From positions 1 through 38,701 of the forward strand of contig JAUYTY010000051.1 in the NCBI GenBank assembly GCA_030694905.1: 38,701 nucleotides of DNA. Reading direction: 5' to 3'. Source of the DNA: Eubacteriales bacterium (GTDB taxonomy: Bacteria; Bacillota; Clostridia; Tissierellales; Dethiosulfatibacteraceae). The notes beneath the pieces are model-generated. The model was not told the origin of the DNA. It saw nothing but the letters and a program-made list of their open reading frames with translations, and searched no databases. Position numbers and translations under genes: made by a program. Shown here piece by piece: positions 3,692-16,173 of the stretch. The first letter of the stretch is position 1; every line of letters begins with the position of its first letter.

Positions 3692-3805
3692 ATGATTAAA
3701 ATATTCATGCATACTATAGGAAGTTCATATGCAACAGTAGCCAAAGGCATCGGTGCGCCTGTTTTTAATCTGTTTACACAGCCTCCAAATGTTGGTATTA
3801 AGTAG
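3692..3805 (+). CDS. 37-residue leader peptide ending QPPNVGIK (family 1 of 2)
   Basis: ATG at 3692 has an excellent AAGGAGGATAAAG ribosome site at 3679-3691. The product begins MIKIFMHTIGSSYA and ends FNLFTQPPNVGIK. It has no cysteine, no signal peptide and no known domain that I recognise. A second ORF at 15167 ends FRMFMQPPNVGIIGK. Over the shared seven codons the DNA differs at three positions, all synonymous third bases, so the peptide itself appears to be under selection. Both ORFs are followed by the same tandem hairpin-plus-T-run arrangement. The position before a drug-exporter-like ABC pair recalls the bmrB leader of Bacillus bmrCD, where translation of a short ORF controls read-through into the exporter. 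That role here is inference. An exported peptide signal is the alternative. Confidence 0.8.
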   Translation: MIKIFMHTIGSSYATVAKGIGAPVFNLFTQPPNVGIK

Positions 3806-3833
3806 AATCAATGCAATATTTTGATTATATTTG

Positions 3834-3867
3834 ACCGCAGGCTGTTTAAACAATCCTGCGGTTTTTT
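3834..3867 (+). terminator. Tandem terminator hairpin 1 (exporter attenuator candidate)
   Basis: Arms ACCGCAGG (3834-3841) and CCTGCGGT (3855-3862) form a perfect 8-bp stem followed by six T. The 13-base loop contains the palindrome TGTTTAAACA. It starts 28 bases after the leader stop. Confidence 0.8.
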
Positions 3868-3876
3868 AATTCTATT

Positions 3877-3899
3877 CCGCAGTCAACCCTGCGGTTTTT
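3877..3899 (+). terminator. Tandem terminator hairpin 2 (exporter attenuator candidate)
   Basis: Arms CCGCAG (3877-3882) and CTGCGG (3889-3894) flank a 6-base loop, followed by five T. It repeats the core of hairpin 1, so the 3' arm of hairpin 1 can also pair with the 5' arm of hairpin 2. Such a pairing would disrupt both terminators. It lies 32 bases before the exporter start. Confidence 0.75.
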
Positions 3900-3931
3900 G
3901 TATTTTCTAAGACAATTATGGAGGTGAAGAC

Positions 3932-5704
3932 TTGAAAAAACTTAGCAAACTATGGCATTTCATGAAGAACAATAGAGGAAAATATATCCTTTCAATCTTA
4001 TTTATGGGCATTTCTGTAGGATTTTCATTATTGGTGCCGGTCATTATTCAGATGGTTGTGGATTCGTTTATTGGAGAGATACCATCGGATTATTTATTTA
4101 TTCAAAGAATCATTCAGATGCCGGGAGGCAGGGAATATGTCCGAAACAACCTATGGATTGGCGGACTTGCAATCATTGTCATCACTGCGGTGTATGGTCT
4201 GTTTCTATTTTTGTCAAACAGGTTGTCTGCAGAGGCATCTGAAGACATAGCCAAAAATATAAGAGATAGGGTTTATGACCATATCCAGCAGATGCCCTTT
4301 GATTATCACAAAAACTCAGATACTGGAGATTTGCTTCAGAGAGCCACTTCAGATGTGGAGACAGTCAGACGATTCTTGTCCATACAGCTGATGGAGGTGG
4401 GAAGGGCGATCTTTATGGTTGCTATAGCCCTATATTTCATGCTGCAGATAAGCTGGAAAATGACGATAGCCGCCATGATGCTGACACCAGTCATATTCTT
4501 CTTTGGCTATATATTCTTCATCAAAGTCCAGAAGGCCTTCAAGATATCCGACGAGGCAGAGGCTGAATTGTCAACAGTGATCCAGGAGAACCTGCACGGT
4601 ACAAGAGTGGTTCGTGCTTTTGCCAGAGAAAAATTCGAGATAGAGAAATTCAAGGAAAAAAACAGGCTTTATGCAGAAAAAACCTACAGATTAATCAAAT
4701 ACCTGGCCTATTATTGGTCCATATCAGACTTTATATCACTGGCATCCATTGGGCTGGTACTGGTATCTGGTGTCTATTTCACCTATATGGGAGAGATAAC
4801 GCTAGGGGCAATCATCGTATTTGTCCAATACGAATACAGACTACTTTGGCCAATCAGACAGCTAGGAAGGATACTCTCGGATTTGGGGAAAGCTATTGTA
4901 TCCTCTGATAGAATCCAGGAAATACTGGATGGTGAGATCGAGACCGACAAAGAGAACGAGACGACACCCGAAATCAAGGGAGAGATTGTGTTTGATGACG
5001 TATCCTTTGCCTATCCGGACAATTTTGACCGGAAGGTGCTGGACCGTGTTTCCTTCACAGTCAAAAAAGGCCAGACAGTCGCGGTCATAGGAAGGACAGG
5101 ATCAGGCAAATCCTCGCTGATTCACTTGTTGGGGCGTCTTTATGATGTGGACGATGGTCGCATCATGATTGATGGTGTCGATATTAAAAACATCCAGAAA
5201 AAATGGCTGAGAAAAAACATAGGCATCGTCTTGCAGGAGCCCTTCCTGTTTTCAAAAACCATCAAGGACAATATCAATTTCAGCAGCCAACAATCAGAGA
5301 AAGCCATTTATGAGGCCGCTAAAATAGCATCGGTACATGAGATCATAAAGGAATTCGACAAAGGCTACGACACGCTGGTCGGAGAAAAGGGAGTGACATT
5401 GTCAGGCGGTCAGAAGCAAAGACTGGCCATAGCCAGAACACTTGTCAACGACTATCCGATTCTTGCCTTTGATGATTCCTTAAGCGCAGTGGACACAGAA
5501 ACAGACATCGCTATCAGAAAGGCTTTGTCCGAAAGAAAGAAAGACATCACCACATTCATCATCTCTCACAGGGTTGCATCAGTCTATGACGCCGACAATA
5601 TTCTGGTCATCGAAGACGGTAAGATCATCGAGAGAGGAAACCACGCCCAATTGATGGCTTTAGGCGGTTACTACAAACGGATCTGGGATATCCAGATGGC
5701 GTAG
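3932..5704 (+). CDS. ABC exporter subunit with degenerate ATP site (BmrC/LmrC-like)
   Basis: A 590-residue half-transporter with six predicted membrane helices (about 18-310) fused to one nucleotide-binding domain. Walker A is GRTGSGKSS (387-395), the signature is canonical LSGGQ (490-494), and Walker B reads AFDDS, with Asp515 where the catalytic Glu is expected. That D-for-E change marks the degenerate-site subunit of heterodimeric type IV exporters (BmrCD, LmrCD, TM287/288). The start is TTG at 3932 behind GGAGGTGA (3920-3927). The partner gene follows after 17 bases. Likely cargo is drugs, lipids or a peptide; the sequence does not decide. Expression is probably gated by the leader peptide and tandem terminators just upstream. 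Confidence 0.9.
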   Translation: MKKLSKLWHFMKNNRGKYILSILFMGISVGFSLLVPVIIQMVVDSFIGEIPSDYLFIQRIIQMPGGREYVRNNLWIGGLAIIVITAVYGLFLFLSNRLSAEASEDIAKNIRDRVYDHIQQMPFDYHKNSDTGDLLQRATSDVETVRRFLSIQLMEVGRAIFMVAIALYFMLQISWKMTIAAMMLTPVIFFFGYIFFIKVQKAFKISDEAEAELSTVIQENLHGTRVVRAFAREKFEIEKFKEKNRLYAEKTYRLIKYLAYYWSISDFISLASIGLVLVSGVYFTYMGEITLGAIIVFVQYEYRLLWPIRQLGRILSDLGKAIVSSDRIQEILDGEIETDKENETTPEIKGEIVFDDVSFAYPDNFDRKVLDRVSFTVKKGQTVAVIGRTGSGKSSLIHLLGRLYDVDDGRIMIDGVDIKNIQKKWLRKNIGIVLQEPFLFSKTIKDNINFSSQQSEKAIYEAAKIASVHEIIKEFDKGYDTLVGEKGVTLSGGQKQRLAIARTLVNDYPILAFDDSLSAVDTETDIAIRKALSERKKDITTFIISHRVASVYDADNILVIEDGKIIERGNHAQLMALGGYYKRIWDIQMA

Positions 5705-5721
5705 GTTCAGGAGGAACACAC

Positions 5722-7545
5722 ATGTCCGATTATGAATTTCAAGAACAAGAATACACAAAAAAAATAGATATGAAAATATGGAAAAAGATCTTCAAATACC
5801 TGATCCGATACAAGAAACTGGTGGCAATCCTGATATTTTTCATGATCAATCTGGCTCTTGCGGATGCCATATTTCCTCAAATGACCCAAAGGGCAATTGA
5901 CGATTTTATAGTACCGGGTCAGCTACAAGGTCTGGAAAACTTCATACTGCAATTCTGCCTGCTGATTGTATGGCAGTCGTTGAATATATTCATCTTTATA
6001 TCAACAGCTGGAAAAATCGAGATGAACCTGACCTATGATATCAGAGAAGAGGCATTTGACAAGCTTCAGAAACTATCCTTCTCATATTATGACAGGACAC
6101 CCACTGGCTGGATCATGGCTCGGATGACATCTGACACCAGAAGACTTGGAGAAATCATCTCCTGGGGTATTGTCGATATCGTGTGGGGATTTTCGTTGAT
6201 GATTATCATAGCGGGTTTTATGATTGCATACAATTTGAAGCTGGCATTGCTGACATTATCAGTTGTCCCGGTTCTCGCTATTCTAAGCATCTACTTTCAG
6301 AAAAAAATACTAGAGGCCTATCGTGTTGTGCGAAAGATCAACTCAAAAATTACCGGCTCGTTTAGCGAAGGCATTTCAGGTGCCATCACCACTAAGGTTT
6401 TGGTTGGGGAAGAAAAACACCTGAATGAATTTAAAGAAATTACCTCTGACATGAAACGGTCGTCCATTAGAGCGGTAATATTTTCGGCTTTGTTTCTACC
6501 GATCGTTCTGACCCTGTCCAGTGTTGCTATAGCCCTTGTGGTATGGTCTGGAGGCAACAGCGTCATCCAGGGTGCCATCACATATGGGACGCTTGTGTTG
6601 TTTATCTCCTACGCCACACAATACTTCGAGCCTATCAGGGAGGTTGCTAGAGTTATTGCTGAATTTCAGCAGGCTCAGGCTGCAGCTGAAAGAGTTATTT
6701 CATTGATTGATGAAGAAATGGACATATTTGATTCAGATGATGTCAGAGAAAAGTACGGAACTATCTTGGAACCGAAAAGGTCGAATTGGGAAGAATTGAA
6801 AGGCGACATTGGTTTTAAGAACGTGTCATTCAAATACAAGAACGGTGAAGAGGTCTTGAAAAGCTTCAATCTGTCGGTCAAACAAGGCCAGAGCATCGCC
6901 TTGGTGGGAGAGACAGGATCGGGTAAGAGTACAATTGTAAACCTGATATGTAGATTTTACGAGCCAACAGAGGGCATGATAGAGATAGATGGTGTTGACT
7001 ACCGAAACAGGTCAATCGCCTGGCTTCATGAAAACATAGGATACGTGCTGCAGGCCCCGCACCTTTTTAGCGGGACCATAGAGGACAATATCAGATACGG
7101 CAAGCTGGATGCCACAGAAGAAGAAATCACTGAGGCGGCCAGGCTTGTCAATGCCCATGAGTTTATCTTGAAGTTTCCAGAGGCCTATAAGACACAGGTA
7201 GGAGAGGGTGGAGGCAAGCTTTCCACCGGAGAGAAACAACTCATCTCCTTCGCAAGGGCAATCATATCAAATCCCAGAATATTTGTCCTGGATGAAGCCA
7301 CTTCATCCATCGATACACAGACAGAGAGAATGATCCAGGATGCTATAGAAAAAGTCCTCCAGGGGAGGACCTCATTCGTGATTGCCCACAGGCTGTCTAC
7401 CATAGTAAACTCTGATAGAATACTGGTAATCGAAAAGGGAGAAGTCGTAGAGGAAGGAACCCATGAAGAGCTGATGGCCATAAAGGGACATTATCACAAC
7501 CTATATACCAATCAGTACAGGGAGAATGCCTTCAAAGCCCTCTAA
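5722..7545 (+). CDS. ABC exporter subunit with catalytic Walker B (BmrD/LmrD-like)
   Basis: A 607-residue half-transporter, partner of the preceding gene. Transmembrane region about 35-310. Walker A is GETGSGKST (396-404), Walker B is canonical FVLDE with catalytic Glu525, and the signature is altered to LSTGE (500-504). The altered signature here and the D515 of the partner would face each other in one ATP site, while the other site (this Walker A/B with the partner's LSGGQ) stays intact. This is the expected complementary asymmetry of a heterodimer and strongly supports a functional pair. The ribosome site AGGAGG lies at 5708-5713. The stop overlaps the stop of the convergent VOC gene. Confidence 0.9.
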   Translation: MSDYEFQEQEYTKKIDMKIWKKIFKYLIRYKKLVAILIFFMINLALADAIFPQMTQRAIDDFIVPGQLQGLENFILQFCLLIVWQSLNIFIFISTAGKIEMNLTYDIREEAFDKLQKLSFSYYDRTPTGWIMARMTSDTRRLGEIISWGIVDIVWGFSLMIIIAGFMIAYNLKLALLTLSVVPVLAILSIYFQKKILEAYRVVRKINSKITGSFSEGISGAITTKVLVGEEKHLNEFKEITSDMKRSSIRAVIFSALFLPIVLTLSSVAIALVVWSGGNSVIQGAITYGTLVLFISYATQYFEPIREVARVIAEFQQAQAAAERVISLIDEEMDIFDSDDVREKYGTILEPKRSNWEELKGDIGFKNVSFKYKNGEEVLKSFNLSVKQGQSIALVGETGSGKSTIVNLICRFYEPTEGMIEIDGVDYRNRSIAWLHENIGYVLQAPHLFSGTIEDNIRYGKLDATEEEITEAARLVNAHEFILKFPEAYKTQVGEGGGKLSTGEKQLISFARAIISNPRIFVLDEATSSIDTQTERMIQDAIEKVLQGRTSFVIAHRLSTIVNSDRILVIEKGEVVEEGTHEELMAIKGHYHNLYTNQYRENAFKAL

Positions 7546-8871: not shown

Positions 8872-11013
8872 ATGAAAATAGCCATTGTTTACAACAGGGA
8901 GAGTCAAGCGGTCATCAATCTGTTTGGAACATTGAACCGGGAGAAATATGGACTTGAAACAATAAATGATATTAAAAATGCCTTGGAAAAAGGTGGCCAT
9001 CAAGTCCGCACCTTTGAGGGAGACAAGAATATCATTGAAAAACTTGAAAAATTCATGCCCTCGGTGATTTCAGGCGAGAGGCCGGGTCTGGTTTTCAATT
9101 TGAGTTACGGTATCCAGGGAAAGGGCAGGTATATGCACATTCCTGGAATATTGGAGATGTTGGGTATACCTTATGTGGGATCAGGACCTGATACCCATGC
9201 TATCGCTTTGGACAAGGTTGTCACAAAAATGATCATCGCGCAAAAGGGCCTGCCTACACCTAGATTTACAGTAATGGACAGGCCTGATTCGCCTTTCAAG
9301 GAGGATTTGAAATATCCTCTGATTGTAAAGCCAAAGGATGAAGCGGTATCCTTTGGCTTGAGGATAGTTCATAATGAAGAAGAACTCAGAGAAGGGGTAA
9401 GGGTCATCTTTACCACATTTAACACACCAACCTTGGTTGAGGAATATATTGACGGAAGAGAGATCAATGTGGGACTACTGGGCAACAATCCTGTCGTGGC
9501 ATTGCCACCTGTTGAGCTGAATTTTGGCGAGGGACTTCAGATTTATACTTTTGAAGACAAGAAAAACACCAGTGGAAGAACAGTGGAAAAGATCTGTCCC
9601 GCACCGCTTTCTCAAGAAGAAACGGAAAAAATCCAACAGCTAGCTATAGACACCTTCAATGCTCTGGGCTGCAGTGACAGCGCCAGGGTTGATTTCAGAC
9701 TGGATAAAGAAGGAAATCCTTATATTTTAGAGGTAAACTCTATGGCGAGTCTGGGAGATACCAGCTCGTTTGTATTCGCAGCAGAGAAAATGGGATTGGA
9801 TTACACTGCCTTGATCAACCGGCTTATAGACGTGGCGTATGAAAGATATTTCGGACCATATATTCTTCCAAGCGCGGAAAACGGCGTCAACGATATGGCT
9901 GTAAACATCTTTAATGTCATCACCCGTAAAAGAGATGACATGGAAGAGGAACTGAAAACATGGACTAATATACCAAGCTGGACAGAGGATCCTGTGGGAA
10001 TCCACACGGTTCTTAGAAAAATAGAAGAAAGAATGAATAAATTGGGATTGACAATCAACGATGAACACACCAATGGCCGGTCAGCATGGACTTGGTCCAC
10101 CAAAGCCGGATTCAAAGATGGAACTCTGATAGTGATCCCTCTGGATATACCCGGAAATAGAACGGGATTTCCAATACCCTTCAGATCCGAACAGGAATGG
10201 CTTTATGGCGAGGGGATTGCATCCAGCAGAGGCGGGCTGACAACTTTATTAAGAACATTGGAGGCACTGAAGGAAATAAAGGTTTTGGATAGTAGAAAAA
10301 TCGGTGTGTTCTATTATAACGACGAAGGCAGAGGCATGCGATACAGCAGCCCTACACTGGTGGAAGCGGCCAAATGGGCAAAACAAGTGATAATAATGCA
10401 ACCGGGATTTGAAGGCGGTAAGATTATAGATCAAAGAAGAGGCACCAAAAAATTTGCCGTCATTCTCGAGGGAGTGCCCATCAGAGTTGGAAGTCGTGCT
10501 AAGCAAATAGACGCTTTGTCATATTTTCTGGAGCAGGCTCATGGACTGCAAGCTCTCAGCAGTCCGGATAAAAAACTGACAGTTGCCGTCCATGATTTGC
10601 ATTCTGAACGCTATAGCGTTTTGCTTCCTCACCGGGTTAAAGCAACAGTATCTTTGACATATCTGGATGAAAATTTGTCAAGGATGGTTGAAAATGAAAT
10701 CAGAAACATATTTAAGAGCAATCCCAAAGGCATACAGGCCTTTGTGGAAAAACTTGAAGAAAGGCCGCCTTTGATAAAAAGAAAGAATAATCCCCTTTTA
10801 AACAAACTGGAAACCCTATCTGAAGAATTGAAGATTCCATTCGGCACAGAATCAAGTCTTTTGGCAACCGCAGCAGGCGTAATTCCGGAGGATCTCCCGG
10901 TCGTTTGTGGGTTTGGACCTGCCAGCAGAGGTTTATATACACCCAATGAAGCAATCAACAGGTCGGAGCTCATTGAGAAAACCTTGCTTCTTGCTCTGCT
11001 GCTTTTGGAATAA
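8872..11013 (+). CDS. D-Ala-D-Ala ligase-like ATP-grasp fused to a metal-ligand-less M20-like domain
   Basis: 713 residues in two parts. Residues 1-330 form a D-alanine-D-alanine ligase-like ATP-grasp: VFNLSYGIQGKGR, IPYVGSGPDTHAIALDK, PLIVKPKDEAVSFG, and metal/phosphate block YILEVNSMASLGDTSS (285-299). Residues about 340-713 follow the M20 peptidase pattern, including a mid-domain dimerisation-like insert (HDLHSERYSVLLPHR). All five metal-ligand positions appear changed: H to P423, D to S451, E to G486, E to Q510 and H to Y689. Catalytic-type D425 and E485 remain. The second half is therefore probably a non-metal, structural or binding domain. It likely makes or binds a dipeptide-like product, but no substrate can be given. 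The gene follows the GNAT remnant by 19 bases; GAGGAGAG precedes the ATG. Confidence 0.75.
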   Translation: MKIAIVYNRESQAVINLFGTLNREKYGLETINDIKNALEKGGHQVRTFEGDKNIIEKLEKFMPSVISGERPGLVFNLSYGIQGKGRYMHIPGILEMLGIPYVGSGPDTHAIALDKVVTKMIIAQKGLPTPRFTVMDRPDSPFKEDLKYPLIVKPKDEAVSFGLRIVHNEEELREGVRVIFTTFNTPTLVEEYIDGREINVGLLGNNPVVALPPVELNFGEGLQIYTFEDKKNTSGRTVEKICPAPLSQEETEKIQQLAIDTFNALGCSDSARVDFRLDKEGNPYILEVNSMASLGDTSSFVFAAEKMGLDYTALINRLIDVAYERYFGPYILPSAENGVNDMAVNIFNVITRKRDDMEEELKTWTNIPSWTEDPVGIHTVLRKIEERMNKLGLTINDEHTNGRSAWTWSTKAGFKDGTLIVIPLDIPGNRTGFPIPFRSEQEWLYGEGIASSRGGLTTLLRTLEALKEIKVLDSRKIGVFYYNDEGRGMRYSSPTLVEAAKWAKQVIIMQPGFEGGKIIDQRRGTKKFAVILEGVPIRVGSRAKQIDALSYFLEQAHGLQALSSPDKKLTVAVHDLHSERYSVLLPHRVKATVSLTYLDENLSRMVENEIRNIFKSNPKGIQAFVEKLEERPPLIKRKNNPLLNKLETLSEELKIPFGTESSLLATAAGVIPEDLPVVCGFGPASRGLYTPNEAINRSELIEKTLLLALLLLE

Positions 11014-12566: not shown

Positions 12567-14834
12567 TTACTCATATTTTTTGGGTTTGAAACCCTTTAAT
12601 CTCAATGCGTTGGTAACGACTGATACTGAGCTTAGACTCATGGCTGCAGCGGCGAACATAGGACTCAGCTTCCATCCAAGTATTGAGTAAAACACACCTG
12701 CGGCCAGTGGGATTCCTGCAGAGTTATAGAAGAATGCCCAGAATAGGTTCTGTTTGATATTTCGTATAGTTGCCTTGCTAAGTTGTATCGCTGAAACCAC
12801 ATCCAACAGATCACTTCTCATCAGCACCACGTCAGCGGACTCTATTGCCACATCCGTGCCGGCACCTATTGCGATGCCGATATCAGCTCTTGCCAGGGCT
12901 GGCGCGTCGTTAATTCCATCTCCAACCATAGCGACAACCTTATTGCCTTCCTGCAGTCTTCTGACCTCACGTTCCTTGTCAGCAGGCATAACCTCTGCGA
13001 TAACTGTGTCGACACCTACCTGGAGGCCAATTGCTTCTCCTGTCAATTGATTGTCACCGGTCAGCATTACAACCTTGATACCCATTTTTTGGAAGGCGTG
13101 TATTGCTTCCTTGCTGGTTGGTTTGACAACATCAGCAGCTGAGATGATGCCTAGCAGCTTGGTATCTGCCAGATACAGCAGTGTTTTTCCTTCTTTGCTG
13201 AGTCTCTCATGCAGTTCAAGATGCTCCGAAACATCGATGCCGATTTCTGACATCAGCTTAACGTTACCGATACTGTATGAGCTGTTATTAATATTTGCCC
13301 TTATTCCTTTGCCTGGAATCGCATCAAATTTCTCCGGCTGATAAAGTGTCAGTCCCTTTTCTTCGGCGGCGTTTATTACCGCTTCGGCAAGTGGATGTTC
13401 GGATCCCTTTTCCATAGATGCGGCAATCTTTAATAGCTCCTGTTCATTCATATCTTGAAAGGTTATAATGTCTTTTACCTCAGGCTTTCCAACGGTGATA
13501 GTACCTGTTTTATCCAAAACGATTGTCTCTATCTTATGCCCTATCTCCAGCGCTTCTCCTGACTTAATGAGAATACCGTTCTCAGCACCTTTTCCGGTAC
13601 CTACCATAATTGCCGTAGGCGTTGCAAGACCTAAGGCACAAGGGCAGGAGATGACCAGTACCGCGATGCCTATAGATAATGCAAACTCAAATGTGTGGCC
13701 TAGCAGCATCCACACGATGGTGGCCAGTAAGGCTATAATCAGCACTACGGGAACAAATATACCACTGATTTTGTCCGCCAATTTGGCAATTGGCGCTTTG
13801 GTGGATTGAGCCTCCTCCACCAGCTTGATGATCTGTGACAGGGTGGTCTCTTCGCCAACCTTTTCAGCTCTAAACTTGATGAAGCCTGTTTTGTTGATGC
13901 TGCCCGATGTTACCTTGCTGTCAGGTTTTTTCTCAACAGGGATGCTCTCACCTGTAATCATTGATTCATCCATGGACGTGTAGCCCTCTGTGACAATACC
14001 ATCTGCAGGGATTCGTTTACCGGGTTTGACGATGATGATGTCTCCTTTGATCAGTTCTTCTACAGGAACCTCTCCCTCAATGCCGTTTCTTTCTACTAAA
14101 GCCGTCTTTGGACTCAGGTCCATCAGTTTTTTGATGGCTTCCGAAGTGCTTCCCTTTGCTTTGGCTTCAAGAAATTTACCCAAGGTAATCAGGGTCAGTA
14201 TGACACCTGCCGATTCAAAGTAAAGATCGTGGGCATAGGTTTTAACAAGATCCATATTATCATGTCCAAGACCATAACCGATCCGATATATGGCGAAGAC
14301 CCCATATACAATAGCGGCACCGGTACCGATGGCTATCAGCGAATCCATATTAGGGGATCCTTTAAACAAAGTTTTGAATCCTATCTTGTAGTATTTGCTA
14401 TTGATGATCGCAACAGGCAGTGTCAAAAGAAACTGCGTGAATGCAAAGCTCATAACATTCATGTGACCTGTTAAAAATCCTGGTAACGGCCAGGCATACA
14501 TATCTCCCATGGCTAGATAAAACAAGGGAATTGTAAAAATCAGAGACCAGATCAGTCGCTTCTTCATTTCCTTATATTCTTCTTCAGCAGGATTTCTTTC
14601 TTCTTTGGTTTTGCTGACAGCCTTGACCGGTTCTGCGCCATACCCAGCCTTTTCAACAGCTTTTATAATATCACTTTCACTGACCTTTGACTCATCAAAG
14701 GTTACATTCATATTGTTTTGCAACAGATTGACCGAAATATCGGTGACGCCATCTATTTTTTTGATGCTCTTCTCAACAGCCAGTGAGCAAGCTGAACAGG
14801 TCATGCCAGATATATTATATTTGTCTTTTTTCAT
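12567..14834 (-). CDS. copA: Cu(I)-exporting P1B-type ATPase CopA
   Basis: 755 residues. One N-terminal HMA domain (GMTCSAC, C13/C16) is followed by eight predicted helices with the P1B signature CPC (397-399) in helix 6, actuator TGES (about 294-297), phosphorylation motif DKTGT with D441, the SEHP motif of the nucleotide domain, and hinge VGDGINDAP. CPC and the linked copZ and csoR genes indicate monovalent copper/silver efflux across the membrane. Many family members have two N-terminal HMA domains; this one has one. GGGAGGTAATT precedes the ATG, and the promoter with its CsoR-like dyad is directly upstream. Confidence 0.95.
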   Translation of the reverse strand: MKKDKYNISGMTCSACSLAVEKSIKKIDGVTDISVNLLQNNMNVTFDESKVSESDIIKAVEKAGYGAEPVKAVSKTKEERNPAEEEYKEMKKRLIWSLIFTIPLFYLAMGDMYAWPLPGFLTGHMNVMSFAFTQFLLTLPVAIINSKYYKIGFKTLFKGSPNMDSLIAIGTGAAIVYGVFAIYRIGYGLGHDNMDLVKTYAHDLYFESAGVILTLITLGKFLEAKAKGSTSEAIKKLMDLSPKTALVERNGIEGEVPVEELIKGDIIIVKPGKRIPADGIVTEGYTSMDESMITGESIPVEKKPDSKVTSGSINKTGFIKFRAEKVGEETTLSQIIKLVEEAQSTKAPIAKLADKISGIFVPVVLIIALLATIVWMLLGHTFEFALSIGIAVLVISCPCALGLATPTAIMVGTGKGAENGILIKSGEALEIGHKIETIVLDKTGTITVGKPEVKDIITFQDMNEQELLKIAASMEKGSEHPLAEAVINAAEEKGLTLYQPEKFDAIPGKGIRANINNSSYSIGNVKLMSEIGIDVSEHLELHERLSKEGKTLLYLADTKLLGIISAADVVKPTSKEAIHAFQKMGIKVVMLTGDNQLTGEAIGLQVGVDTVIAEVMPADKEREVRRLQEGNKVVAMVGDGINDAPALARADIGIAIGAGTDVAIESADVVLMRSDLLDVVSAIQLSKATIRNIKQNLFWAFFYNSAGIPLAAGVFYSILGWKLSPMFAAAAMSLSSVSVVTNALRLKGFKPKKYE

Positions 14835-15100: not shown

Positions 15101-15129
15101 TTGACATCAGGATTAAAGTGAGCTATCCT
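15101..15129 (+). promoter_or_regulatory. Promoter of leader module 2 and the micro-ORF array
   Basis: TTGACA (15101-15106), 17 bases, TATCCT (15124-15129): the same consensus -35 and spacing as the promoter of module 1. Confidence 0.75.
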
Positions 15130-15166
15130 ATTGAAGGATAAAAAATACTATAAAGGAGGAATTGAA

Positions 15167-15289
15167 ATGATCACTATGAAATTAAGAACAATCAGAAAAG
15201 CATCAGATGTAAGTGTCGGCAACGGGATAATTGTATCTAATTTTAGAATGTTTATGCAGCCTCCGAATGTGGGAATTATAGGAAAATAA
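15167..15289 (+). CDS. 40-residue leader peptide ending QPPNVGIIGK (family 2 of 2)
   Basis: ATG 15167 follows TAAAGGAGGAATTGAA. The peptide starts MITMKLRTIRKASDV and ends FRMFMQPPNVGIIGK. It shares F-x-x-F-x-Q-P-P-N-V-G-I with the peptide at 3692, while the N-terminal halves do not align. The codons for QPPNVGI differ from the other copy only at synonymous third positions (CCG for CCA, GTG for GTT, GGA for GGT). The adjacent prolines followed by Asn are of a kind known to slow ribosomes, so a stalling leader is a reasonable inference. Unlike copy 1, no transporter follows; an array of tiny ORFs does. Confidence 0.78.
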   Translation: MITMKLRTIRKASDVSVGNGIIVSNFRMFMQPPNVGIIGK

Positions 15290-15308
15290 TTTTTCTCTGT
15301 AAATATTG

Positions 15309-15344
15309 ACCGCAGGCTTGTGTAAACGCACCCTGCGGTTTTTT
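15309..15344 (+). terminator. Module 2 tandem terminator hairpin 1
   Basis: Arms ACCGCAGG (15309-15316) and CCTGCGGT (15332-15339), identical to the arms of hairpin 1 in module 1, followed by six T. Confidence 0.8.
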
Positions 15345-15352
15345 AGTGTCAT

Positions 15353-15379
15353 AACCGCGGGAGAACCTGCGGTTTTTTT
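15353..15379 (+). terminator. Module 2 tandem terminator hairpin 2
   Basis: Arms AACCGCGGG (15353-15361) and CCTGCGGTT (15366-15374), nine pairs with one G-T wobble, loop AGAA, then a run of seven T. Its arms can exchange partners with those of hairpin 1. Confidence 0.8.
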
Positions 15380-15467
15380 AATGGAATTTTAATAGATTAA
15401 ACCTTATTGTTTAATACTTTAAGTTTAAAATATGTTTGATAGCAAATTAACAAAGGAGGTAATTCAA

Positions 15468-15503
15468 ATGACAATCAGAAAGGTGAACGCAACAAGGAAA
15501 TGA
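15468..15503 (+). CDS. 11-codon micro-ORF (MTIRKVNATRK)
   Basis: ATG 15468 has a strong AAAGGAGGTAATTCAA ribosome site. The product MTIRKVNATRK ends at TGA 15501-15503. The TIRK start and its codons echo TIRKA in the peptide at 15167. The stop overlaps the ATG of the next micro-ORF as ATGA. It may be a real coupled leader, or the front half of a frameshifted small gene. Confidence 0.4.
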   Translation: MTIRKVNATRK

Positions 15504-15535
15504 AGGGCTATATTGACAGCATTTGCGCTAAGTAG
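15500..15535 (+). CDS. 11-codon micro-ORF (MKGYIDSICAK), coupled to the previous one
   Basis: ATG 15500 overlaps the preceding TGA by the ATGA arrangement and ends at TAG 15533-15535. Joined by a one-base shift, the two pieces would give one small peptide of about 23 residues. No independent ribosome site is visible. Confidence 0.3.
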   Translation: MKGYIDSICAK

Positions 15536-15553
15536 GAATAAGGAGGTAAAGAA

Positions 15554-15679
15554 ATGAGCAAAGAGTTGAATATGATAATAGAGAATCGAAATGATAGGAA
15601 TAAATCAAATAGTATTTTTGATAACGAAATTATAAGACAGAATCCTGAATTATGGGGAAAACTGATTTGGAGGATCTGA
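15554..15679 (+). CDS. 41-residue small protein of unknown function
   Basis: ATG 15554 follows AAGGAGGTAAAGAA (15539-15553). The product MSKELNMIIENRN... is Asn-rich and charged, with a hydrophobic-aromatic end (PELWGKLIWRI). It ends at TGA 15677-15679, whose last base is the A of the next ATG, so translation is coupled. The final stretch ELWGKLIW loosely recalls the NWKLL start of the next three proteins, but I would not call it homologous. No function recognised. Confidence 0.6.
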   Translation: MSKELNMIIENRNDRNKSNSIFDNEIIRQNPELWGKLIWRI

Positions 15680-15813
15680 TGGAAAACTGGAAATTATTGG
15701 AAGATGGAAGAAAATTGTTTATGAGACTGGAATACAAAAAAATAGAGAAAATGCCAAAGAGAAATCTTGAATATAGAATAATAGAAAACTTTCACGATTT
15801 TAGGCAGAAATAA
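15679..15813 (+). CDS. Micro-ORF family member A (44 residues)
   Basis: ATG 15679 overlaps the previous stop; TTTGGAGGATC provides the ribosome site. The N-terminus MENWKLLEDGRKLFMRLEYK aligns with MKNWKILKEGRNLYKNIEYK at 15826 and MNNRTWLREGKVVFRKLEHG at 15972. The shared pattern is M-x-N-x-x-x-L-x-(E/D)-G-(R/K)-x-(L/V)-(F/Y)-x-x-(L/I)-E-(Y/H). The rest is basic and ends ENFHDFRQK. Predicted as a short amphipathic helix; no membrane segment, no cysteine. Unknown function. Confidence 0.7.
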   Translation: MENWKLLEDGRKLFMRLEYKKIEKMPKRNLEYRIIENFHDFRQK

Positions 15814-15825
15814 TTGGAGGAAATG

Positions 15826-15951
15826 ATGAAAAACTGGAAAATATTGAAAGAAGGACGAAACCTTTATAAAAATATAGAATACAAAAACAATAGGAATAAG
15901 CAAGCCGTTGATTATCCATTTGGCGTGCTGAGAGATTTACCAAGGTTTTAA
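15826..15951 (+). CDS. Micro-ORF family member B (41 residues)
   Basis: TTGGAGG at 15814-15820 serves two adjacent ATGs (15823, 15826). The second is chosen for spacing and because it aligns with the paralogues (MKNWKILKEGRNLYKNIEYK). The C-terminal half NNRNKQAVDYPFGVLRDLPRF differs from its neighbours. The variable tail on a conserved head suggests either rapid divergence or a specificity-determining end. Unknown function. Confidence 0.7.
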   Translation: MKNWKILKEGRNLYKNIEYKNNRNKQAVDYPFGVLRDLPRF

Positions 15952-15971
15952 GCGACTGATTGGAGGACATT

Positions 15972-16094
15972 ATGAATAATAGAACATGGTTAAGGGAGGG
16001 AAAGGTAGTTTTTAGAAAACTGGAACATGGAAAGCCACCCAGTACCGAAGAAAAATATAATCGGGAAGAAAGCCTATACAAACCATTTGTATAA
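15972..16094 (+). CDS. Micro-ORF family member C (40 residues)
   Basis: ATG 15972 follows TTGGAGGACATT. MNNRTWLREGKVVFRKLEHG is the most divergent of the three heads, and the tail KPPSTEEKYNREESLYKPFV is acidic and polar. Three repeats of ribosome site + head + variable tail in 420 bases indicate tandem duplication of a real gene rather than chance ORFs. Confidence 0.68.
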   Translation: MNNRTWLREGKVVFRKLEHGKPPSTEEKYNREESLYKPFV

Positions 16095-16128
16095 GATTGG
16101 ACTCCCTTAGGCCAATATATTAAGCGAT

Positions 16129-16173
16129 GGGATGACCAGATAATGCAAGTATCTGTAATCCTGTCTTTTTTTT
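16129..16173 (+). terminator. Candidate terminator after the micro-ORF array
   Basis: Inner arms CAGATA (16137-16142) and TATCTG (16150-16155) with outer GGGAT/ATCCT pairing, then GTC and a run of eight T (16166-16173). The internal loop makes it weaker than the tandem hairpins. Confidence 0.45.

Follow-up and report, generated by a model that had tools for sequence, protein, structure and literature searches.

The head-bearing micro-ORFs of the window, the whole 38,701-nucleotide stretch of DNA analyzed here, are, judged by their sequence, members of an undescribed micro-protein family. The products of these arrays are charged and short, occur several per operon, and combine one conserved motif with a variable remainder. 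We consider it about an even chance (probability roughly 0.5) that they are intracellular stress effectors working via a partner common to all, most likely in the machinery of translation or protein turnover. Among the many small ORFs missed by annotation, the family is a further case, one with evidence for selection, and leader-ORF attenuation, so far known mostly for resistance and biosynthesis genes, apparently drives operons composed only of micro-proteins.

A stand-alone leader-array unit between copA and citD

The array occupies an AT-rich stretch (31% G+C versus ~40-44% in the adjoining kilobases) between a copper ATPase gene and a citrate lyase operon. This stretch is a single stand-alone unit comprising a promoter, a leader ORF, two terminators, six micro-ORFs, and a final terminator:

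12567-14834, minus strand: copper ATPase gene (copA), upstream flank of the unit
15101..15129, plus strand: promoter TTGACA-17-TATCCT, assigned by pattern scan (10/12 matches), position, and spacing
15167..15289, plus strand: leader ORF of 40 aa, MITMKLRTIRKASDVSVGNGIIVSNFRMFMQPPNVGIIGK, ending in QPPNVGIIGK, with a strong ribosome site, AAAGGAGGAATTGAAATG; its own genome holds a second copy before an ABC exporter pair
15308..15341, plus strand: first attenuator terminator, GACCGCAGG...CCTGCGGTTTTTT, -18.2 kcal/mol by folding; coordinates may be off by a base or two
15353..15381, plus strand: second attenuator terminator, AACCGCGGGAGAACCTGCGGTTTTTTT, by folding and pattern scan
15468..15503, plus strand: micro-ORF MTIRKVNATRK, 11 aa, strong ribosome site
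15500..15535, plus strand: micro-ORF MKGYIDSICAK, 11 aa, ATGA overlap with the preceding ORF
15554..15679, plus strand: micro-ORF MSKELNMII..., 41 aa, without the motif, strong ribosome site
15679..15813, plus strand: micro-protein 1, 44 aa, MENWKLLEDGRKLFMRLEYKK..., TGATG overlap, found with the family profile
15826..15951, plus strand: micro-protein 2, 41 aa, MKNWKILKEGRNLYKNIEYKN..., found with the family profile
15972..16094, plus strand: micro-protein 3, 40 aa, MNNRTWLREGKVVFRKLEHGK..., found with the family profile
16126..16172, plus strand: unit-ending terminator before citD, -14.9 kcal/mol by folding
from 16226: citD of the citrate lyase operon, downstream flank of the unit

The micro-ORFs described in a first-pass annotation (four to six, of 11-44 codons, nearly all with strong ribosome sites, several with stop/start overlaps) are all present, six in number. 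That annotation also assigned the array a dedicated promoter and an attenuator. The promoter is found before the leader, but directly 5′ of 15468 the pattern scan score is no better than chance. The attenuator is supported, with its terminators lying upstream of the micro-ORFs, around the long leader (15101-15381); both are G+C-rich and have the 3′ arm CCTGCGGTTTTTT in common. The first micro-ORF has ACAATCAGAAA in common with the leader and may be what is left of a copied leader start. No relatives of the ORF at 15554..15679 were found, and it is not a member of the head family. An Rfam scan returned a tRNA as its sole match.

Micro-proteins 1-3 (15679-16094) have similar heads of ~20 residues followed by unrelated tails. 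Residue shuffles support the head similarity in all three pairs (p < 0.00005, 0.00015, and 0.0007), while the tails give negative scores in pairwise comparison. Sequence search alone detects the match between micro-proteins 1 and 2 (44% over 25 aa, single-genome E 0.0012). This comparison of heads and tails supports the earlier proposal of tandem duplication with tail diversification. The proposed 19-position head consensus survives in part: the heads are alike, but only M1, N3, L7, G10, and E18 are invariant. The head of micro-protein 2 is predicted, from a shallow alignment, to form a helix over residues 3-28, with a pLDDT of ~81 over residues 1-20.

A micro-protein family defined by a short helical motif

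A profile built from the three heads found homologous heads elsewhere, so the array survives the sequence half of the refutation test set in the first-pass annotation. It picked small open frames in the same GTDB family that, read by eye, led to tandem micro-ORFs in three genomes (G003, G005, and G007), directly upstream of a SHOCT-like/DUF2089/SHOCT-like operon. An eleven-head profile from these genomes re-found the window copies and gave weak matches in small open frames elsewhere, several of which are also tandem arrays with the motif at the C-terminus. A profile of this C-terminal type yielded matches down to 6e-15, with the sequences that built it matching by construction, and many multi-copy loci in the order. 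These comprise new arrays in G016, G017, G023, G036, G037, G042, G048, and G056, and further new loci in G014, G032, G034, and G046.

Tandem arrays occur in ~20 genomes from nine families of one order, Tissierellales as judged from named relatives, and one array lies in another order (G440); the number of families rests on the family labels given to the genomes. A few more genomes carry single-copy motif ORFs. Within Tissierellales, the array loci include those of Sporosalibacterium faouarense (L170/L208) and a Thermohalobacteraceae bacterium. The motif core, D-x-G-[LM]-x-x-Y-x-K-[IL]-E-[YFLH], lies at one end, N- or C-terminal, of ORFs of 28-56 residues and extends roughly to K-[KR]-D-x-G-[LM]-[ED]-[EL]-Y-x-K-[IL]-E-[YFLH]-[RK]-[KR]. 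Over 62 different seed segments, selected by a pattern that itself demands the E, the G is conserved in 74% and the Y in 71%.

A phylum-wide profile search of 398 genomes found no further array and returned two matches, inside ORFs of 235 and 417 aa; the profile is thus specific and the distribution narrow. The first-pass annotation did not recognize the family, and searches of Pfam, NCBIfam, PHROGs, and PADLOC gave no convincing match for the array ORFs, and none matched an NCBIfam or Pfam model at E up to 10, YrzI-type models included. Sequence searches of plasmids and phages found nothing convincing, a viral contig scan found no relative, and a literature text search with the motif letters and with QPPNVGI turned up nothing relevant. 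Among PDB sequences, the best match to the motif profile was SAMHD1 (E 0.56), which is a chance value. A resemblance to ribosomal protein bS21, noted by eye, was rejected; no bS21 is among the PDB sequences that the motif profile matches. Because loci in these draft genomes were chosen by following the profile, the family is defined partly by its motif. Tandem clustering, ribosome sites, the excess of synonymous changes, and the empty phylum-wide search are supports that do not depend on the motif.

Orthologous micro-ORFs appear to be mostly under purifying selection, with dN/dS values from 0.09 to ~0.5. The comparisons include G046/G020 (0.17, p 1.4e-9) and G034/G020 (0.16, p 1.5e-5); orthologues of a second array give 0.09 and 0.16, G005/G007 gives 0.22, and G014/G030 gives 0.36. 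Higher values come from G037/G048 (0.48, p 0.24), where changes are few, and from the single-ORF pair G034/G046 (0.52, p 0.21), where changes are few or selection is weaker. Pooled dN/dS is 0.18 for the motif and 0.27 for the remainder. Since orthologues differ mainly at synonymous sites, the micro-ORFs are protein genes.

Leader ORFs and probable attenuation upstream of the arrays

A leader ORF of 22-40 aa followed by tandem terminators lies 5′ of the array in nine genomes from seven families (that of the window, G014, G030, G032, G037, G017, G042, G044, and G011). The leader in the window is a translatable short ORF with a ribosome site, directly 5′ of an intrinsic terminator, as in bmrB-type attenuators. 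A sister leader in the window precedes an exporter:

3692..3805, plus strand: second leader ORF of the same type (...FTQPPNVGIK), with two terminators, before the ABC exporter pair
3932-7545: heterodimeric ABC exporter pair, behind the second leader

This leader-exporter module also occurs in G001 (L073 5784-9637). Between the two orthologous leaders dN/dS is 2.4, at few sites, and constraint like that on the micro-ORFs is absent.

The first-pass annotation asked whether homologues also follow a QPPNVGI leader. A leader ORF does often precede arrays, but its peptide differs, and leader peptides of the modules are unrelated in sequence. What recurs is an mRNA segment near the leader 3′ end whose sequence complements the first terminator's 5′ arm (CAGCCTCC, CCTGCGAT, GGCCTGCGA, ACAGCCTG, or CCTGGGG). 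It is read in different frames as QPP, RPAI, LRV, SLR, or DLG, which argues that the RNA is conserved and not the QPPNVGI peptide. Across nine modules, with terminator arms picked by eye as the first hairpin after the leader, the pairing gives a Fisher p of 1.9e-13 against dinucleotide shuffles and 1.4e-11 against codon-order shuffles. This test leaves out G030, which is near-identical to G014, and counts the modules as independent; the two window leaders are related, so that independence is imperfect. The array leader of the window alone pairs weakly (p 0.20 and 0.07).

In a simple folding model that masks all sequence upstream of the ribosome's front edge, the probability of the first terminator in G032, G042, and G044 is ~0 with the segment free and ~1 with it covered. 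The ABC module of the window shows a partial switch with ribosome position. The array module of the window shows none: its terminator, very stable at equilibrium, forms with a probability of 0.78-0.85 at every ribosome position. Ribosome-mediated attenuation is therefore well supported by sequence and folding predictions for the group of modules, though not by folding for the window copy. The leader in many array genomes probably reads how well ribosomes work. Leaders are absent before the arrays of G003, G005, and G007 and of the G020/G034/G046 group, so translation sensing is not universal.

This architecture resembles several known systems. In B. subtilis, the bmrB leader mediates induction of bmrCD by 50S inhibitors through a short leader ORF, alternative stem-loops, and a terminator (PMC4191407). 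The exporter under bmrB-bmrCD control is a heterodimeric ABC pair. The sister leader at 3692-3805 seems to govern an exporter of the same kind, and the 3692-7545 module looks like a drug-responsive operon of this type. Unlike bmrB-bmrCD, the array modules control micro-ORFs, have one to four tandem terminators with shared arms, and encode mutually unrelated leader peptides. The B. subtilis yrzI operon (S1024, S1025, S1026, yrzI) likewise encodes several tiny proteins and is sensitive to the state of translation (PMC10100781, PMC10632193), but no NCBIfam or Pfam model matches the array ORFs in sequence. Listeria rli80-hflXr and similar macrolide-sensing leaders also couple a leader ORF to a terminator/antiterminator switch (PMC6310831); unlike them, the array leaders are not enriched for the [KR]x[KR] macrolide arrest motif (7/9 versus 4.8 expected).

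Two further observations concern the upstream regions. Leader peptides at L208 1654-1740, L217 2036-2104, and L218 2892-2960 contain KKIEYK, like array members (E 0.003 to 0.06); such a leader could have arisen from an array ORF, or could be a site at which the motif is sensed. Promoters of leaderless arrays (L071, L074, L075, and L118) are embedded in repeated AT-rich ATTAATAAAATTAAT-like elements, which are perhaps operators of a shared regulator.

A proposed role in the response to translation stress

Transcription would start 5′ of the short leader ORF and normally stop at the terminators behind it. When the leader is not freely translated, owing to ribosome-targeting antibiotics or another block in translation, its 3′ codons would be left free to pair with the 5′ arm of the first terminator, and transcription would read into the micro-ORFs. 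The micro-proteins would then act inside the cell, their conserved amphipathic helix docking on a partner common to all of them that most likely belongs to the translation or protein-turnover apparatus, while the variable halves would add contacts specific to each copy. The combination of one conserved helix with a variable remainder behaves like a docking motif, and a leader type common to the array and the ABC exporter pair (3692-7545) points to a function in responding to translation inhibitors. A more specific version, possible but less likely, is a translation-stress regulon in which each array supplies several peptides whose single conserved helix docks on one core machine common to all (probably a translation factor or the ribosome itself) and whose variable halves diversify the effect; arrays would expand and contract through tandem duplication and relocate along with their sensor leader.

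The micro-ORFs might instead act in cis, with translation of the tandem ORFs, and not the peptides, controlling mRNA life or a downstream gene, much as the yrzI and bmrCD transcripts of B. subtilis are cleaved by Rae1 in a translation-dependent manner. Both operons are candidate direct targets of Rae1 decay (PMC10632193), and both increase upon failure of tRNA maturation (PMC10100781), a pairing of micro-ORFs with an exporter that the window also shows; some arrays lie upstream of an M29 peptidase gene with no clear terminator between (L131). We nonetheless regard this as rather unlikely: purifying selection acts on the amino-acid sequence of motif and remainder alike, the motif is found at either end of the ORF, and in both the window and L170/L208 a terminator separates the array from the gene that follows. 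A role as accessory inhibitors or adaptors of neighboring peptidases or SHOCT/DUF2089 regulators would fit the M29, M42, or M20 peptidases beside many arrays and the arrays in G003, G005, and G007 that run into the SHOCT-like/DUF2089/SHOCT-like genes. It is made distinctly unlikely by neighbors that vary between families, by a window array with neither peptidase nor SHOCT/DUF2089 gene, and by DUF2089 operons that mostly lack an array in the genomes that carry them.

The roles as signals, toxins, or antitoxins offered in the first-pass annotation are not borne out. The array products show no secretion signal by eye, no family match, and a conserved motif. Peptide pheromones are short and differ between strains, whereas this motif is conserved, which argues against a strain-specific pheromone. 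That the micro-ORFs encode precursors of signaling peptides for an RRNPP-type TPR receptor is highly improbable, even though the arrays in G440 and G545 are divergent from an HTH-TPR regulator and that of G016 lies between two TPR proteins: most arrays have no TPR neighbor, none adjoins the window array (its neighbors are copA and citD), and the conserved part is a long charged helix common to several families. We give equally little credence to toxins or antitoxins of small addiction modules. The ORFs are indeed small, tandem, dispersed, strongly regulated, and found at varying loci, but they lack the hydrophobic pattern of type I toxins, a common partner gene, and a PADLOC match, and several similar copies share one operon.

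We return to the preferred reading, in which the micro-proteins share an intracellular partner. Array neighbors vary by lineage among peptidases, SHOCT/DUF2089 genes, and HTH-TPR regulators. Many arrays (L208, L234, L222, L224, L233, L235, and L232) have an M29, M42, or M20 peptidase beside them, and a class IV aminotransferase together with an M29 peptidase surrounds many. Since no neighbor is constant, none is likely to be the general partner. In G440 and G545 (L230 and L231), where an array or a single ORF diverges from the HTH-TPR regulator, that regulator might be its controller.

Elsewhere in the window, positions 8872-11013 encode a protein of 713 aa whose N-terminal part is ATP-grasp, of the D-Ala-D-Ala ligase-like type, and whose further C-terminal half is unmatched by those models. 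In G014 (L204 2401-3162), four nearly identical micro-ORFs are evenly spaced 223 bases apart, the product of recent amplification inside an array.
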